From Bacteroidales bacterium (GTDB lineage Bacteria; Bacteroidota; Bacteroidia; Bacteroidales; UBA12077): a stretch of DNA of 64,000 nt. Shown in pieces: positions 47,698-55,660 of the stretch. The position numbers and the translations under genes were made by a program. Position 1 is the first letter of the stretch; every line of letters begins with the position of its first letter. The stretch is taken from the NCBI GenBank assembly GCA_016342685.1, contig JAEINU010000004.1, forward strand, positions 434,001 through 498,000, given 5' to 3'. Below the pieces are notes generated by a model. It ran no database searches. It saw only the letters and a list, made by a program, of their open reading frames with translations, and was not told the origin of the DNA.

Positions 47698-48918
47698 TTA
47701 TTTTTTTCTTATACAACGAACTTGTCGTCTGGCATTACTACCAGTATCGTATGTTTGACCATTCATAAAGTTTTTCTCAAACATCGCACTTGTACTACCC
47801 TGTTTTTTTGGTGTTGATGACCAATACCATTCACCATTCATATTAAGAGCAATTTTGTTATTATACATAAATTCAAGATTGTCAATAGTTGGTAAAATCC
47901 AGTCGTTATAGCCATATGCTGTAGAGCTTTCGCAAACATCATTGGCTTCTTTCCATTTGTATTCACCGGGCAAATCTTCGGGCATTACCTCGTAATCAGT
48001 ACCATATAAGCTAAATCCCCAGACACCTTCGGCATCAACTAAATTTATAGTACCATTACTATGAACGCACCTTACAAAAGATTTAGCTTTAGCAGCTGCA
48101 GGAACAAGTTTGTCGGCATCAAATGCCTGTCGATAATAAACATTGTTCTTTTCAGGAGTGGCAGACCAATACCAGTATGTTTGCATATTTCGTAATGCAG
48201 ATTTTTGAACATACAGTCTCGATATCTCAAGTTTTGTAGGTAATCTCCATTCTGTTAAACCATAAGCATTACTTTCCAGACAAGCTTCGTTTGCTTCCAT
48301 CCAAGTTGTTTTAGTAGGAGTTCCATCTATAGGCATAACGAGTAAACTTAAACCCATCATATTTAATTCAACTAAATCTTTAGAATCTGACTCATCAATT
48401 TCATATTTTGGTTGACTTAAAGAAGAGCGAGAATGACTATTTCTTACCGATGCTCCTTGTTGCTGCAACATTGCTCTTGAAACAGTTGAAACAACTGTAA
48501 ATAAGTCATCTAATCCCGATTGTGTTATTCCTGTATTTTGTCTTTCTATCTTAGCCGTAAGAACGTCAACCATTTTACATGATATATAATAATTTCCACC
48601 AACCGATGAGATTGATGCATAACAAACGTAGTGGGCTCCCATTTTTTTACCAAGTTCACCAATTTGTCCATCATCCACGTGTCCTGTCATTTGAAATTTA
48701 CTTTCGGCAAGAACTTTATTGATTAATTCACGCTCTAGAACTGTGAACCCAAGTGTGTTAACAACTGCATTGCTAAGTTCTTCGCGGATAACTATTTTTA
48801 GGTTTTGAGAAACATCTCCAACGGGATCAAATACCGCAACTTTTTTGTCTTCCTGACCATTTACAATGCCAATTACAGCGAATACAAGAAAGATGATCAA
48901 CAGGTTTATTTTATTCAT
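47698..48918 (-). CDS. Exported CsgG-like N-terminal plus two DUF1566 domains
   Basis: 406 aa with a signal peptide (about 1-21). The first domain (KKVAVFDPVGDV, FTVLERELINKVLAE, GAHYVCYASISSVGG) resembles the CsgG/GNA1162-like fold that computes 'penicillin-binding lipoprotein activator' type functions. Two DUF1566 repeats follow (TTWMEANEACLE...EWRLPTKLEI...YWYWSATPE, and KWKEANDVCES...DWILPTIDNL...EWYWSSTPK), which look like C-type-lectin-related modules. Function unknown; probably a periplasmic or surface-binding protein. It is 12 bp downstream of an LPP20-like gene, so an operon. Confidence 0.7.
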   Translation of the reverse strand: MNKINLLIIFLVFAVIGIVNGQEDKKVAVFDPVGDVSQNLKIVIREELSNAVVNTLGFTVLERELINKVLAESKFQMTGHVDDGQIGELGKKMGAHYVCYASISSVGGNYYISCKMVDVLTAKIERQNTGITQSGLDDLFTVVSTVSRAMLQQQGASVRNSHSRSSLSQPKYEIDESDSKDLVELNMMGLSLLVMPIDGTPTKTTWMEANEACLESNAYGLTEWRLPTKLEISRLYVQKSALRNMQTYWYWSATPEKNNVYYRQAFDADKLVPAAAKAKSFVRCVHSNGTINLVDAEGVWGFSLYGTDYEVMPEDLPGEYKWKEANDVCESSTAYGYNDWILPTIDNLEFMYNNKIALNMNGEWYWSSTPKKQGSTSAMFEKNFMNGQTYDTGSNARRQVRCIRKK

Positions 48919-48930
48919 GGCTATATTGAT

Positions 48931-50001
48931 TTAATTATTTATCCAGATTAATATTTTTTCCGATATAGGGTTACTTATTTCATTATATGCTTTTTCAGCA
49001 GCATCTTTATAAGATTTACTATGTGCACCTTTTTTTGTAAACTCATTCTGGTACACATGTTTATCCGAAGGAGCTTTAAAAAGTTTTACTTCGGCATCCA
49101 CATAGCTAAAATACACATTATTTGAGAAATTATACTCTCTTGACTTTGTATTTATTATAACTTTCCAATCTGCTTCGCTCTCATCCTTAGTGAATCTGCA
49201 ACCATTTTCTGCTAAAATTGCTTTCAAATTATTTTCTATTGATATTGTGTTATTCCCGAAAAGGTCTTCTTCTGCAACAATGTAAACGATTATACCTTGT
49301 GCTAAACGAGCATTTGCTTGAACAACATCATTATATAGCTTCATTGTTTTTTGCATTTTCAAATCTTCATCTGTAATATTTTTATCAACGGCACTTAGTA
49401 TTCCCTGAGATTTGGTTACTTCTGTAAAAACAGGTAGTGCTTTATTAAATTCTTCCTTTGCCTTATTTTTTTCTTTGTTTTTTTCTAGTTCAAGTGCAGT
49501 GTTAATAAAACCTTCAATTTGTTGAACCTGTAAGTTTAAGTTCGCTTTATAATATCCAATTATTTCATATTTGTTTGCAAATGCAAATCCATAAACCATA
49601 TTATCATTTACATAACTTTCTACACGAATTCCATTTATTTCAAGATCTGTAGATATTTTTGTTTCATACTTAAAATCTTCTTTGAAATTTTCGGAGCCAT
49701 TTTCAATTATACTTTGAGTATAATTTTCGCTAACACTTTTCACTGAAGCTAAAATGCTTTCCGACAGATCTGTACGAGCCAGGTCTTTTAGTCGTTCGGT
49801 TGCTTCTGATATAGATTCAGAAGTGTTTTTTTCATCTTGAGCAAATCCAGTAATAAAAACATTCGATGGATATTGTTCTGTTCTCCACGATTGTTTCAGC
49901 CATGAAGGCTCGTTTTGAGATTTTAATACATTAAAGGAGGCTAAACAAAGGAATAATAAAACTATTCGTTTAATATTTTTATTGAGGATTTCTATTTTCA
50001 T
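48931..50001 (-). CDS. Exported LPP20-like protein
   Basis: 356 aa. The signal peptide is cut near residue 29 (NVLKSQN). The N-terminal domain (about 35-155) begins PSWLKQSWRTEQYPSNVFITGFAQDE in the style of LPP20 family proteins, with a helical central part (ELEKNKEKNKAKEEFNK). The C-terminal domain is again CsgG-like (ADWKVIINTKSREYNF). Function unknown. First gene of a pair with the CsgG-like/DUF1566 protein; the combination recalls the LPP20/CsgG-type lipoprotein pairs of outer-membrane assembly loci. Confidence 0.65.
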   Translation of the reverse strand: MKIEILNKNIKRIVLLFLCLASFNVLKSQNEPSWLKQSWRTEQYPSNVFITGFAQDEKNTSESISEATERLKDLARTDLSESILASVKSVSENYTQSIIENGSENFKEDFKYETKISTDLEINGIRVESYVNDNMVYGFAFANKYEIIGYYKANLNLQVQQIEGFINTALELEKNKEKNKAKEEFNKALPVFTEVTKSQGILSAVDKNITDEDLKMQKTMKLYNDVVQANARLAQGIIVYIVAEEDLFGNNTISIENNLKAILAENGCRFTKDESEADWKVIINTKSREYNFSNNVYFSYVDAEVKLFKAPSDKHVYQNEFTKKGAHSKSYKDAAEKAYNEISNPISEKILIWINN

Positions 50002-50180: not shown

Positions 50181-50208
50181 TTTAGTTAGAAAAGAATGAA
50201 TACTTTTG
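50181..50208 (+). promoter_or_regulatory. Promoter of recO
   Basis: TTTA (50181-50184), 16-bp spacer, TACTTTTG (50201-50208), close to the Bacteroidota consensus. The predicted transcript starts about 20 nt before the recO ATG at 50233, which rules out the upstream TTG at 50206 as start. Confidence 0.6.
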
Positions 50209-50232
50209 TACAAGATATCTAATAAAACTGAA

Positions 50233-50958
50233 ATGCTTTTTAAAACACGGGGAATTGTTCTGCATCATATAAAGTATTCTGAAACTAGCGTAATAGTAAC
50301 AATATATACTGAGCTCTTCGGAAGGCAATCGTATATTATTAATGGAGTTCGAGGTAAAAAATCAAAAATTAAGGCGAATATTTTACAATCTTTGTTTTTG
50401 CTCAATATGGAGGTTTATCATAAACCTAAACAAGACCTTCAAAGAGTTAAGGAAGCTCAACCTGACTTTGTATTTAGTTCGCTACCCTATGATATTAGAA
50501 AAAGCACATTAGCAATTTTTATTGCAGAGATTTTGTATAAAACAATTCAAGAACACGAAGCAAATGCTGAACTATTTAATTATTTGTACAATTCAATTCA
50601 GGTATTGGATTTAAAAGAAAAGGGAATTTCCAATTTCCACTTGTATTTTTTAATACATCTTACAAAATATCTCGGTTTCTTTCCTGAGAATAATTATTCT
50701 GATTCAAGATGTTATTTTGATTTAAAGGCAGGTCGCTTTATGCAAATTAAACCCATGCATTTATTCTTTATAGGTCCCATAGAAAGTAAGATTTTAAACA
50801 CATTGTTCGAATTTTCAGAGAATCAGCACGAAAATGTTAATATTCGCCATAAAGAAAGGATTGAAATTCTTGAAAAGATATTAGATTATTATTCATTACA
50901 TATTGATGGCATTTCAACCATAAAATCCTTAAGTATATTAAGGGAAGTTTTCCATTAG
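50233..50958 (+). CDS. recO: DNA repair protein RecO
   Basis: 241 aa from ATG 50233 (MLFKTRGIVLHHIKYSETSVI). The N-terminal OB-fold with YTELFGRQSYIINGVRGKKSK and the helical C-terminal part (LYFLIHLTKYLGFFPE, CYFDLKAGRF) match RecO of Bacteroidota. The zinc-finger cysteines of some RecO proteins are not obvious here. RecO acts with RecR to load RecA at gapped DNA during recombinational repair. Confidence 0.9.
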   Translation: MLFKTRGIVLHHIKYSETSVIVTIYTELFGRQSYIINGVRGKKSKIKANILQSLFLLNMEVYHKPKQDLQRVKEAQPDFVFSSLPYDIRKSTLAIFIAEILYKTIQEHEANAELFNYLYNSIQVLDLKEKGISNFHLYFLIHLTKYLGFFPENNYSDSRCYFDLKAGRFMQIKPMHLFFIGPIESKILNTLFEFSENQHENVNIRHKERIEILEKILDYYSLHIDGISTIKSLSILREVFH

Positions 50959-51095: not shown

Positions 51096-51130
51096 TAAAA
51101 AGCCTTTGCCTGTTACAAGGCACTTTTTAA
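51096..51130 (+). terminator. Weak terminator-like hairpin between recO and the aminotransferase gene
   Basis: Stem GCCTTTG / CAAGGC with one bulged T, followed by ACTTTTTAAG. The rest of 50959-51182 shows nothing I recognise. Confidence 0.45.
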
Positions 51131-51153
51131 GTAAAGATATTTTTATACATTTG
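51124..51153 (+). promoter_or_regulatory. Probable promoter of the aminotransferase-like gene
   Basis: TTTT (51124-51127), then TACATTTG at 51146-51153, 30 bp before the ATG. The -33 part overlaps the preceding terminator-like T run. Confidence 0.45.
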
Positions 51154-51182
51154 CGTTCCACTTTTGGGAAATAGAAATTATT

Positions 51183-52322
51183 ATGATAAAAACGAAGATG
51201 TCGAACATAGGGAAAGATATTTATACTATAATTTCAGAATTATCTCAAGATACTGATATTATAAACTTAGCGAAAGTAGCTCCTGATTTTTCCTATTCTG
51301 AAGAATTAAATAAGCTTGCTGCTAAGTATATGAAGGAAAAATCTACGGAGTATTCGCACCCTGATGGATTAATGGAATTGCGTGAAGCAATTGTTGAAAC
51401 TATTTCGAAAAAGCACGGTGTTAATTTTAGCGCATTAAATGAAGTTACTGTTACAGCTGGTGCAACACAAGCTATGTATACTGTTATTAGTAGTTTTGTT
51501 GATGAAGGAGACGAAGTTGTTTTATTCGAACCAGCATTTAATAGTTATGTTCCTGCAATTCAGAGCAATGGTGGCAGACCAGTTTTTGTTCAATTAAAGC
51601 AACCCGATTATCGAATTGATTGGGAAGCTGTTCAAAAATTGATAAATACACGAACAAAATTAATTATTATAAATACTCCGCATAACCCAACAGGTATAAC
51701 TTTTAATCAAGAAGACATTGCTCAACTTAAGAAAATTACAAACGGCACGAAAATTAATGTAATTGGCGATGAAGTATTTGAGTCAATGGTGTTTGATGGC
51801 AAAAAGCATTATAGTGTTTTATCAAATGAGCAATTAGTCGAGAGAAGTATTGTAATTTCATCTTTAGGAATAACATTTAATGTTCCTGGATGGAAAATCG
51901 GGTATTGTGTAGCTCCTGAAAAATTGATGAGTCAAATCAGAAAGAATCAGCTTTTTCAAATTAATTCGGTGAATACGCCTTTACAATATGCAATGGCCGA
52001 TTATTTAAAAAATGGAGTTGATTTTAGTTCAATAAATAAGAAGTTTGAAGAAAAACGCGATTTTGTAATTGATTTATTAAAAGATTCGAAATTTGAAATA
52101 ATTCCGACACAAGGGGGGTTTTATCAATTAATAGATTATAGCAAAATAAGTGAAGAAAAGGACACCGAATTTGCAAGAAGAGTAATGGACGAATTTGGTG
52201 TTGCATTATTCCCATTATCAGTGTTTTATCACGATTCAATAGACGATAAAATTTTAGGATTTAGTTTCGCACGCGACGAAAAAGTACTTAAAGAGGCTGT
52301 TAAGAGGTTAAAGAAGATCTAA
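51183..52322 (+). CDS. Fold-type I aminotransferase homologue lacking the catalytic lysine
   Basis: 379 aa, full length for class I/II aminotransferases. It has many family motifs: HPDGLMELREAI, TAGATQAMY, EPAFNSYVPAI, NTPHNPTG (N168), GDEVFE (D196) and VPGWKIGYCVAP. The PLP-binding lysine position, normally S-(S/F)-G-K-T, reads S-L-G-I-T here, with I230 at that site. The tyrosine after the Asp is F199, and the substrate-carboxylate arginine near the end is G359 (ILGFSFARDE). The closest relatives in style are YbdL-type methionine/kynurenine aminotransferases. With all three residues changed it is probably a catalytically dead pseudoenzyme or a PLP-independent protein. It lies just upstream of the GH3 operon. 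Confidence 0.85.
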   Translation: MIKTKMSNIGKDIYTIISELSQDTDIINLAKVAPDFSYSEELNKLAAKYMKEKSTEYSHPDGLMELREAIVETISKKHGVNFSALNEVTVTAGATQAMYTVISSFVDEGDEVVLFEPAFNSYVPAIQSNGGRPVFVQLKQPDYRIDWEAVQKLINTRTKLIIINTPHNPTGITFNQEDIAQLKKITNGTKINVIGDEVFESMVFDGKKHYSVLSNEQLVERSIVISSLGITFNVPGWKIGYCVAPEKLMSQIRKNQLFQINSVNTPLQYAMADYLKNGVDFSSINKKFEEKRDFVIDLLKDSKFEIIPTQGGFYQLIDYSKISEEKDTEFARRVMDEFGVALFPLSVFYHDSIDDKILGFSFARDEKVLKEAVKRLKKI

Positions 52323-52364
52323 ATCTTATAAAAAACATAAAGAAATCATATTTCATCGTTATTA

Positions 52365-52403
52365 ATAAAACCAAATATTCAGTATATTTGGTTTTATATT
52401 TTT
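52365..52403 (+). terminator. Terminator after the aminotransferase-like gene
   Basis: Perfect 14-bp stem ATAAAACCAAATAT / ATATTTGGTTTTAT around TCAGT, followed by ATTTTTAA. Confidence 0.8.
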
Positions 52404-52425
52404 AAATAGATTTATTTAAATACAG

Positions 52426-53943
52426 ATGCAAATAATTGGCTCTTTAGTAACCTGGCTTAATTTTAAGCGATTATATCAGATAGACTTATTCAAAAAGTTT
52501 CCGTTTGATGCCCAAAGAGAAGTTTTTCACCAGCTTATCGAAAGTGCCAAAAGAACTGATTTTGGGGTTGAATACGATTTTAAATCTATTAAAAGCATAG
52601 AAGAATTTCAACAAAGAGTTCCAATTCATACTTACGAGAAAATCAAACCATATATTGATCAATTAATGCTGGGGAAACAAAATGTTTTGTGGCCTAGTGA
52701 GATAAAATGGTTTGCAAAATCATCAGGAACCACAAGCGATAAAAGCAAATTTATTCCAGTATCACGAGAAACCTTAGAAGATTCTCACTTTCGTGGAGGG
52801 AAAGATATTCTTGCCTTATATGCCACAAATTATCCCGAAACGGCTTTATTTAAAGGTAAAGGATTAACGCTTGGTGGAAGTCATCAAATAAATAAAATAA
52901 GCAATGAATCATTTTATGGAGATTTGTCGGCAATACTTATTGAAAATTTACCATTTTGGACATACTTTATAAGAACCCCAAGTCAGGAAATTGCTTTAAT
53001 GAGCGAGTGGGAGGAAAAATTAGAAAAAATTGCAGATGCTACCATAAAAGAGAATGTGACAAATATTGCAGGTGTTCCTTCCTGGATGCTGGTTCTAATC
53101 AGATATATTCTTAATAAGACGGGGAAACAAAATCTTTTGGAGGTTTGGCCAAACTTAGAGCTGTTTACACATGGTGGAGTTAGCTTTGAGCCTTATAGAG
53201 AACAATTTAAAAAATTGATCCCTACCTCTAAAATGAATTATCTCGAAACTTATAATGCATCGGAAGGATTTTTTAGTATTCAAGATCATCCAGATCAGAG
53301 TGATATGTTGTTGATGCTAGATTATGGAATTTTTTATGAGTTTGTACCGGTAGAAGAAGTTGATAACGAAAGTCCTAAGGCTTTTCATATTGATGACGTT
53401 GAATTAGATAAAAATTATGCAATTCTTATAACAACAAACTCAGGGTTGTGGCGATACATGATTGGTGATACAGTTACATTTACTTCATTATATCCTCATA
53501 AAATAAGGATAAGTGGAAGAACAAAGCATTTTATAAATGCTTTTGGTGAAGAGGTTATCATAGACAACGCCGAAAAGGCCTTACAAGAAGCAAGTAAAAG
53601 AACAAATGCTTCAATTAGAGATTATACAGCAGCTCCTGTATTTATGAGCGAAAAAAATAAGGGAAGTCATCAATGGTTGATAGAATTTGACAGGATGCCA
53701 ACAAGTGTGGAGGAATTTAGAGATGTTTTGGATGCGGCTCTGCAAAAGGTAAATTCGGATTATGAAGCTAAAAGATATAAAGATATTACTTTAGAAAAAC
53801 CTGTATTAACAGTTGCTAAAGATGGATTGTTTTATAACTGGCTTAAGGGGAAAGGTAAAATTGGAGGACAAAATAAAGTTCCAAGACTTGCAAATAACCG
53901 CGAATATGTTGATGAGCTTTTGGAGCTAAACAAAAAAATATAA
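52426..53943 (+). CDS. GH3-family acyl-adenylate / acyl-amido synthetase
   Basis: 505 aa. It carries the ATP/AMP-binding loop SSGTTSDKSKFIP (about 98-110), the YNASEGFF motif (about 285-292) and the RYMIGDT motif (about 344-350), plus SGRTKHFINAFGEEV, the usual set of plant GH3 proteins. In plants they join acyl acids such as auxin or jasmonate to amino acids. In Bacteroidota the family is known but its substrates are not. It heads a four-gene run with spacings of 7-11 bp. Confidence 0.85.
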   Translation: MQIIGSLVTWLNFKRLYQIDLFKKFPFDAQREVFHQLIESAKRTDFGVEYDFKSIKSIEEFQQRVPIHTYEKIKPYIDQLMLGKQNVLWPSEIKWFAKSSGTTSDKSKFIPVSRETLEDSHFRGGKDILALYATNYPETALFKGKGLTLGGSHQINKISNESFYGDLSAILIENLPFWTYFIRTPSQEIALMSEWEEKLEKIADATIKENVTNIAGVPSWMLVLIRYILNKTGKQNLLEVWPNLELFTHGGVSFEPYREQFKKLIPTSKMNYLETYNASEGFFSIQDHPDQSDMLLMLDYGIFYEFVPVEEVDNESPKAFHIDDVELDKNYAILITTNSGLWRYMIGDTVTFTSLYPHKIRISGRTKHFINAFGEEVIIDNAEKALQEASKRTNASIRDYTAAPVFMSEKNKGSHQWLIEFDRMPTSVEEFRDVLDAALQKVNSDYEAKRYKDITLEKPVLTVAKDGLFYNWLKGKGKIGGQNKVPRLANNREYVDELLELNKKI

Positions 53944-53950
53944 AACCCTT

Positions 53951-54757
53951 ATGGTAAGATTCTTTAGTATTATTTTTCTTTTTTGTTGTATGGATGTTTA
54001 TTCTCAAGTAGAGTTCATATTTATTAAAGAGATAAAAACAGAATCTACAAATTTTACAACAGACCAACTCGGAAATATTTTTTTGCTAAAAGATGGAGGA
54101 ATCACCAAAATCAATGCAACAAATAATAAGCAAAAAACATATAGCAACAATCTTTTTGGTAAAATTTCAAGAATAGATGCTTCCGACCCATTCCGCATAT
54201 TAGTTTTTAGTAAGGATTTTAATAAGATTTTATTTTTAGATAACAATTTGTCGGAAATAGCAAGTCCCATAGAATTATACAATCTAGGATATTATAATGT
54301 GAGTTCAGTTTGTCAATCAAATAGTGGTGGGTTTTGGCTTTTCGATCAAAATTTGAACGAATTAGTTTATTTCAATCGAAATTTAAAACAAGAAAAAAGG
54401 AGTTCTCAAATAACATCACTTCTGAATCCCGACATTGAAATAAATGAGGTTTTCATGGAAGAAAAAAATGATTATATTTATCTGGGCATAGAGGGAGAAG
54501 GTGTTTTGTTATTTGACATATACGGTACATATATAAAAACATTTCCGCTAAAAGAGATTTGTAGGTTTCAGATAATAGATGGGAATATTATTTATTTAAA
54601 TAAAGACGTATTGAATATTTATCAAACTAAGAATTTTAATAAAGATATATTAGATTTGCCTATTGAAAATTCAATAAACGCAAGAATTATACAGAAAAAT
54701 ATACTTGTACTTACTAACGATAAGTTAATTGAATATCAGTTAAATAATATAAAATAG
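53951..54757 (+). CDS. Secreted beta-propeller-like protein of unknown function
   Basis: 268 aa with a signal peptide (cut near residue 19, MDVYSQVE). Repeats of the type 'L-D-x-x-G-N-I-F-L-L' (TTDQLGNIFLLKDGGITKINA, SNSGGFWLFDQNL) suggest a small NHL-like propeller. Function unknown. It begins 7 bp after GH3 and precedes the small DNA-binding-type gene by 7 bp, so it belongs to the GH3 operon. Confidence 0.6.
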   Translation: MVRFFSIIFLFCCMDVYSQVEFIFIKEIKTESTNFTTDQLGNIFLLKDGGITKINATNNKQKTYSNNLFGKISRIDASDPFRILVFSKDFNKILFLDNNLSEIASPIELYNLGYYNVSSVCQSNSGGFWLFDQNLNELVYFNRNLKQEKRSSQITSLLNPDIEINEVFMEEKNDYIYLGIEGEGVLLFDIYGTYIKTFPLKEICRFQIIDGNIIYLNKDVLNIYQTKNFNKDILDLPIENSINARIIQKNILVLTNDKLIEYQLNNIK

Positions 54758-54764
54758 CTTTAGA

Positions 54765-55007
54765 GTGAAAAATAGGAATTTGGTAAAAGATGAAAGCTTA
54801 AAAAGATCACATCGTAAATCAATATTATTTAATAAGAGAGAAATGCAGGCAATAGATCACTATTGTAAAAGATATAAAATCAAGAATAAATCAAAATTTA
54901 TGCGTGAGATAATAATATCATCAATCTTAAAAAAATTTGATGAAGATTATCCTTCATTATTTGAGAAAAAGCCTACATTGTTTAATCAAAAATTAAAAAG
55001 ACGATAA
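54765..55007 (+). CDS. Small basic ribbon-helix-helix-like protein
   Basis: 80 aa starting at GTG. It begins with a basic patch (LKRSHRKSILFNKREMQA) and two helices (AIDHYCKRYKI, KSKFMREIIISSIL), as in the MobC/ribbon-helix-helix type proteins. It is probably a DNA- or RNA-binding protein. Conserved order with the following deoxynucleoside kinase gene, 11 bp away, suggests a chromosomal housekeeping role rather than plasmid mobilisation. The family call is tentative. Confidence 0.6.
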   Translation: MKNRNLVKDESLKRSHRKSILFNKREMQAIDHYCKRYKIKNKSKFMREIIISSILKKFDEDYPSLFEKKPTLFNQKLKRR

Positions 55008-55018
55008 AGATATAAGAT

Positions 55019-55660
55019 ATGATAAAAGATAACTCAAACGGTGCCATGCATATAGCAATTGCAGGAAATATTGGATCAGGAAAAACAACATTAACCGAAT
55101 TGTTGGCGAAGCAATATAATTGGGATGCACATTACGAAGATGTCGATGACAATCCTTATTTGAATGATTTTTATGAAGATATGCAACGATGGTCGTTTAA
55201 TCTTCAGGTTTATTTTTTGAATAGCCGTTTAAATCAAATCCTAAACATAAGAAAATCGGGAAAAACAGTTATTCAAGATCGAACAATATATGAAGATGCA
55301 TATATTTTTGCGCCAAACTTGCACTCTATGGGATTGATGTCTACACGCGACTTTGAGAATTATTTTACGCTTTTTAATCTGATGACATCTTTAATTCAAC
55401 CACCCGATTTATTAATTTATTTAAGAGCAACAGTGCCTACATTGGTAAATCAGATTCAGAAGAGAGGACGTGACTATGAAAACTCTATTCGCTTAGATTA
55501 TTTAAAGCGATTAAATGAAAGATACGAAGCTTGGGTTGGGTCGTATAATCTTGGTAATCTATTAATTATAGATGTTGATAATTTGAATTTTAAAGAAGAA
55601 AAAGAAGATTTAAGCAAGATTATCAGTAATATCGATGCACAAATTCACGGTTTATTTTAA
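55019..55660 (+). CDS. Deoxynucleoside kinase
   Basis: 213 aa. The P-loop GNIGSGKTT sits at about 16-24, the acid EDVDDNPYLNDFYED segment near 40, and the catalytic DR motif (QDRTIYED) at about 87-88. The LID region contains QKRGRDYE. It phosphorylates deoxynucleosides for salvage. An alternative start is the in-frame ATG at 55046 (MHIAIAGNIG), used by many relatives; I kept the first ATG because a purine-rich stretch precedes it. Last gene of the GH3 run. Confidence 0.88.
   Translation: MIKDNSNGAMHIAIAGNIGSGKTTLTELLAKQYNWDAHYEDVDDNPYLNDFYEDMQRWSFNLQVYFLNSRLNQILNIRKSGKTVIQDRTIYEDAYIFAPNLHSMGLMSTRDFENYFTLFNLMTSLIQPPDLLIYLRATVPTLVNQIQKRGRDYENSIRLDYLKRLNERYEAWVGSYNLGNLLIIDVDNLNFKEEKEDLSKIISNIDAQIHGLF

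Follow-up and report, generated by a model that had tools for sequence, protein, structure and literature searches.

The window analysed here, a 64,000-nucleotide stretch of a Bacteroidales contig, encodes a pseudo-aminotransferase that is real, arose by stepwise losses and is under selective constraint, yet can be dispensed with. From its active-site residues we consider it very probable that the protein has no transaminase activity, and a selectively maintained function is likely. We give about an even chance to the reading that it is a non-transaminating pseudoenzyme, an in-place descendant of a YbdL-type methionine/glutamine aminotransferase, which would hold PLP, PMP or a related phosphorylated ligand and act by binding. 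The gene and the codons that matter are these:

51183 to 52322, + strand: coding sequence of a YbdL-type aminotransferase homologue without the lysine; 379 aa, ATG to TAA, 0 internal stops.
51273 to 51275, + strand: codon 31, Lys, within what was the SQGFPDF substrate loop, from comparison of position 31 across relatives.
51777 to 51779, + strand: codon 199, Phe, at the site of the cofactor-contacting tyrosine; GDEVFE against SDEVYE in YbdL.
51870 to 51872, + strand: codon 230, ATA, Ile, at the site of the PLP Schiff-base lysine, the lysine of SSFGKTYH in the 1u08 alignment.
52257 to 52259, + strand: codon 359, Gly, at the site of the substrate-carboxylate arginine; LGFSFA against IRLCFA in YbdL.

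The roles of the lysine, tyrosine and arginine in aminotransferases are established. The window protein matches the Aminotran_1_2 domain (E 2.9e-53), and among solved structures E. coli YbdL (PDB 1u08, E 3.7e-88) is closest to it in sequence, with SSLGITFNVPGWK in the window protein against SSFGKTYHMTGWK in YbdL. Alignment to 1u08 bore out all three replacements called in the earlier note, lysine to I230, tyrosine to F199 and arginine to G359. The rest of the gene is intact, as the note had also held: all 379 codons are open, and the GAT, NPTG and GWK motifs are as in YbdL, so that catalytic residues are gone from an otherwise intact, conserved protein. An AlphaFold2 model from 27 aligned sequences (pLDDT 92.3, pTM 0.90) has fold-type-I architecture; Foldseek against the PDB ranked YbdL 1u08 first, with a TM of 0.95 and 39% identity. 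The protein also scores as a member of NCBIfam NF006569 (methionine aminotransferase, PRK09082), at 423 bits against a cut-off of 420; automatic annotation would therefore mislabel it as a methionine aminotransferase, a warning that a curated cut-off can be passed by a protein from which that activity is almost certainly absent. Seven other homologues were found in the same genome, all with lysine at the aligned position, and the search of that genome found no canonical YbdL-type copy among them.

Relatives came from a search of 295 genomes of the order, from which 26 + 80 loci were aligned as a selection from among the matches listed, and from a scan of genome contigs that gave 43 homologous loci, the nearest labelled Bacteroidales or Marinilabiliales metagenome assemblies; 7 of these 43 were counted among the whole-genome loci, 10 were aligned and 26 remoter ones were left out. 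In the window's own family, f1, the gene was found with at least 48% identity in 17 of 25 genomes, window included (14 of 20 in the window's genus, 3 of 5 in the sister genus). Across 133 aligned rows the triad reads K-Y-R in 108, I/V-F-G in 9 and K-F-G in 8, both of the latter types being confined to f1; the remaining 8 rows, outside f1, have the lysine, the tyrosine or both changed and keep the arginine. Position 359 is glycine in all 17 f1 members and arginine in the other 116 rows. K, Y and R are all present in each of the 103 canonical relatives compared in one alignment, a set that by construction excludes f1, the degenerate groups and five remote rows, groups having been set aside partly for differing. 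Codon 230 in the nine-member lysine-less clade is ATA, ATT, GTT or GTA, which encode only Ile or Val.

A sequencing error or chimera, already thought unlikely, can be ruled out because relatives from other assemblies carry the same changes, with I/V230 in 9 of 17 family members and F199 and G359 in 17 of 17. The other eight f1 members retain the lysine and sit at the same locus as the lysine-less ones. Such same-place homologues with an intact lysine were what the earlier note had named as evidence against a new role; they exist, but they are already without the tyrosine and the arginine, so the lysine went late in the series and did not begin it. As read from the alignments, the loss is stepwise, from K-Y-R through K-F-G to I/V-F-G.

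A 141-row tree (the 133 rows and 8 more), made by a quick search with the active-site columns removed, gave SH-aLRT values of 95, 98 and 99 for nested f1 sets of 17, 14 and 9 rows. The fewest changes on this tree are seven for the lysine, seven for the tyrosine and one for the arginine (R359, in f1); on this tree, then, the sampled order shows at least seven changes of the lysine, and the window's family is the only one to have lost the arginine too. Lysine is missing from 18 rows: nine of f1, L199 (R), L169 (I), L206 (E), L232 and L233 (P), L234 (R) and L236 to L238 (E). Those outside f1 are further YbdL-type homologues with the PLP lysine replaced and the substrate arginine kept; one genome, G114, has the lysine-less L206 (K to E) together with a canonical copy, L179. 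Four of the seven lysine changes (f1, f83, f73, f30) fall in copies adjoining recO or GH3. L199, L232, L233, L237 and L238 adjoin one of these genes; L236 of f30, L169, L206 and L234 are not placed by either in the stretches seen.

Constraining 28 rows into one group (17 of f1 and 11 of f83, f65, f73, f115 and f30, 10 of these 11 lying by recO or GH3) gave a likelihood 69.8 units above the free quick tree, with a p-AU of 0.923; this shows no clade, because the rows were picked after seeing the tree, several are long branches and the free search was short. A joint reading of the losses is that the order's YbdL-type gene, above all the copy by recO or GH3, was repeatedly made lysine-less by two routes. 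The window's family would have lost the substrate arginine and kept the PLP cup, while other lineages would have kept the arginine and lost the lysine and, in several, phosphate-site residues; the pocket of the window's clade would have been rebuilt (K31, H59, N120, N233, N261) as a new PLP-family ligand sensor or as an enzyme with a relocated catalytic group. We regard this joint reading as doubtful.

The gene lies between two conserved neighbours, with candidate transcription signals on either side:

50206 to 50958, + strand: recO, the upstream neighbour (RecO_N, RecO_C).
51140 to 51159, + strand: promoter-like element TTTTTATACATTTGCGTTCC, recognisable in 14 of 14 genus members aligned.
52365 to 52397, + strand: terminator-like 14-bp A/T-rich hairpin followed by a T-rich run, from an RNA fold of 52323 to 52415.
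52426 to 53943, + strand: GH3-family (acyl-acid amido synthetase type) protein, the downstream neighbour (Pfam GH3, GH3_M, GH3_C).

recO is directly upstream in 16 of the 17 f1 members, the seventeenth being cut off by a contig end, and GH3 is directly downstream in all 17, as it also is in f83 and f65. Further downstream most f1 loci have a hypothetical gene, a small gene and a deoxynucleoside kinase. In the window, 52426 to 55660 looks like an operon of GH3, the hypothetical gene, an 80-aa protein without a Pfam match and the kinase, with gaps of 7 to 11 bp; the kinase is also near GH3 in other families. Two opposite-strand genes (47698 to 50001; one Lcl_C/CsgG-like, one without a Pfam match) separate porZ from recO in the window and in L107, L108 and L109, and are absent from the other f1 loci compared. 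In L117 (G008) GH3 is present as two adjacent ORFs, perhaps through a frameshift or an assembly error. In the rest of the order, canonical homologues are mostly flanked by different genes. Eroded-site copies follow recO in f83, f73, f115 and f30, and a canonical gene in G113, L140, sits after porZ-recO, which supports descent in place of the window's gene.

Synteny indicated no partner. In 6 of 22 outgroup neighbourhoods the gene immediately after the homologue has a Pfam CN_hydrolase match and is presumably of the omega-amidase type. Co-loss with this gene was rejected, a protein 41–48% identical being present in 23 of the 25 f1 genomes; the same search in 41 outgroup genomes matched in 36, some only remotely.

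The earlier note had proposed a pseudoenzyme and held that a clade with conserved changes under purifying selection would argue for neofunctionalisation. Such a clade exists (I/V230, F199, G359), and dN/dS is 0.051 for the lysine-less pair L054/L055 at a dS of 0.37, a value from a single unsaturated pair by a simple method (Nei-Gojobori, NG86), other pairs, with dS above 1, being indicative only. This is like the neighbouring genes in the same two genomes: recO 0.070, porZ 0.074, GH3 0.031, the kinase 0.018 and the hypothetical neighbour 0.127. The promoter-like element is kept as well, although some of the 14 genus members differ in it by one to a few bases; outside it the DNA upstream of the gene has diverged. 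The Bacteroidetes -7 consensus is TAnnTTTG. The element fits this consensus and is the single match in the genome within 2 mismatches. Downstream, the fold of 52323 to 52415 has a z of -3.81, with 0 of 200 shuffles as good. Of the claim that the gene has its own promoter and terminator, a conserved promoter-like element and a terminator-like hairpin stand, but a stock sigma-70/terminator scan reported neither. The terminator scan did pick out, on both strands, a short G-C inverted repeat followed by T's at 51107 to 51122, just upstream of the promoter-like element, which is possibly the end of the recO transcript.

Eight f1 genomes are without the gene. In four of the window's congeners (G014, G019, G020, G023) recO is followed by GH3 across a gap of about 100–260 bases; in G002, of the sister genus, a remnant near a contig end has a stop and is missing its C-terminal part; in the other three (G003, G015, G021) no GH3 match was found, so the locus was not found there. 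A GH3 tree places G014, G019 and G020 inside the lysine-less clade (the GH3 of G023, split over contigs, is not in that tree), and because these clean losses fall there the gene is dispensable in at least one lineage.

Decay in relatives had also been named in advance as evidence against a new role, and there is some, in the four clean losses and the remnant with a stop; but the matched stretch is free of stops in all 17 f1 copies, of which L067 starts at the edge of its contig. The same observations bear on the possibility that the gene is dying, its reaction no longer needed, its active site lost and the gene being removed lineage by lineage, such that the conservation is only slow decay. 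The absences between recO and GH3, the broken copy in G002 and the eroded active sites of related lineages would all be expected of a dying gene, but 17 of 17 copies open, a dN/dS of about 0.05, a position 230 that is only Ile or Val, intact ring and phosphate positions and a conserved promoter-like element would not, and we consider this account improbable.

By analogy with LCB1 and its partner LCB2, the protein could instead be the non-catalytic subunit of a heterodimer with an active paralogue, a proposal to which we assign a similarly low probability. Y57, which we take to correspond to Tyr63 of kynurenine aminotransferase I (KAT-1), is retained. Tyr63 is given from the other subunit, according to PMC4926479, and LCB1 is still part of its enzyme without the PLP lysine, according to PMC3794620. 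The genome, however, has no second YbdL-type gene that we could find; the nearest homologue shares 28% identity with the protein and is encoded on a different contig, neither close nor linked as an LCB1-like arrangement would have it. No second homologue was found in the f1 neighbourhoods retrieved.

Ten positions of the protein, chosen by analogy with KAT/YbdL contacts as presumed to touch the PLP ring or phosphate (Y57, G93, A94, T95, F119, N164, N168, D196, S227, K238), are invariant in all nine lysine-less members; over the whole protein, 196 of 379 positions are invariant in these nine sequences. This makes PLP binding plausible, although the contrast overstates the case because ring and phosphate positions are well kept across the entire family. 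Lysine-retaining sisters vary at several of the ten: T95N in L065 to L067, Y119C in L064, and D196, the expected partner of the PLP ring nitrogen, to N in L060 and L062. Outside f1, the lysine-less rows of f73 (G, S) and f30 (P, Q, H) and L206 (E) no longer have K238, but L199, L234 and L169 still have K or R there. Other residues of the pocket region have changed and become fixed, K31, H59, N120, N233 and N261 each being present in 9 of 9 lysine-less members.

These changed residues leave a small chance, by analogy with ColD/E1, that the protein is a lysine-independent PLP/PMP enzyme with new chemistry, in which K31 or H59 might serve as base or K31 as a relocated Schiff-base lysine. K31 and H59 are both invariant in the nine; position 31 in the 103 canonical relatives is Q in 101 and K in none, and H59 is rare outside f1, where position 59 is P in 107 of 116 rows and H in the canonical row L026. 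ColD/E1 also offer a precedent of histidine for lysine (PMC8987622). Residue 230, however, is an inert Ile or Val. A swap of the lysine to position 31 is not supported, because K31 coexists with K230 in three of the seven lysine-retaining f1 members that have that position.

Equally slim is the prospect that the protein works together with the adjacent GH3, for example by holding the amino acid or acyl substrate of that protein or by regulating N-acyl amino acid synthesis. The adjacency in 17 of 17 f1 members and in f83 and f65 invites it, as does the GH3-like OlsH, which makes lyso-ornithine lipid and has almost 90% of its matches in Bacteroidota (PMC12493201). But GH3 occurs in 24 of 25 picked genomes of the order with a homologue within 1.5 kb in only 5 of the 24, which weakens GH3 as an obligate partner; in f73, f115 and 2 of 3 f30 genomes the gene follows recO while GH3 lies at another place; and a promoter-like element of its own and a hairpin set the gene apart from GH3.

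We return to the non-transaminating pseudoenzyme that acts by binding. Its ancestor would have been a YbdL-type methionine/glutamine aminotransferase at the same place. The sequences show that the whole family has R359G, Y199F and a changed substrate loop, and that the lysine was then replaced by Ile or Val in one clade of the genus, with purifying selection continuing and the ring and phosphate positions examined intact. Because chemistry residues were removed stepwise while the protein was mostly kept, another job is probable, and we infer a new role. The protein would still be a YbdL-like dimer whose pocket may bind PLP, PMP or a similar phosphorylated ligand non-covalently; the presence of such a ligand, as far as residues can tell, is a toss-up, and the ring and phosphate positions, conserved family-wide, may instead have been kept for structure. 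Amino acids would no longer be clamped by the usual arginine, and action would be through binding, that is, ligand sensing or contact with a partner protein, and not catalysis.

For few pseudoenzymes do the intermediate stages survive. In this case proteins without the arginine and proteins also without the lysine occupy the same syntenic locus, and another family has a canonical relative that likewise follows recO, so the order of loss is testable with natural proteins. Repeated loss in related lineages raises the question of what selects for the PLP fold without its chemistry.

A search of titles and abstract openings in the open-licence literature found no published description of the window's lysine-less family; pseudoenzymes are reviewed in PMC10211241. 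Comparison with known systems places the protein nearest to YbdL (1u08), with which it shares fold, length, the GAT, NPTG and GWK motifs and the ring and phosphate positions; it differs from YbdL in the absent Schiff-base lysine, cofactor tyrosine and substrate arginine and in the changed SQGFPDF loop. Human KAT-1/glutamine transaminase K (1w7l) has the same fold (TM 0.92), and we take N168, I230 and G359 of the window protein to correspond to its Asn185, Lys247 and Arg398. According to PMC4926479, Lys247 is the PLP lysine of KAT-1, and Asn185 and Arg398 contact the carboxylate; the window protein has I230 and G359 in place of the lysine and the arginine. LCB1/SPTLC1 of serine palmitoyltransferase is likewise a retained PLP-enzyme homologue without the PLP-binding lysine, and is a needed subunit (PMC3794620); it is, however, heterodimeric with its paralogue LCB2, and no such partner is seen here. 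Rv3778c of M. tuberculosis, an expressed PLP-enzyme homologue without the lysine that is presumed non-catalytic (PMC12910592), and Alt2 of S. cerevisiae, termed inactive in the title of PMC3458083, are comparable cases, but of other subfamilies and organisms. The sugar 3-dehydratases ColD and E1 share with the window protein an aminotransferase fold in which the catalytic lysine is replaced (PMC8987622); theirs is a histidine working with PMP, whereas the window's clade has Ile or Val in nine of nine members.
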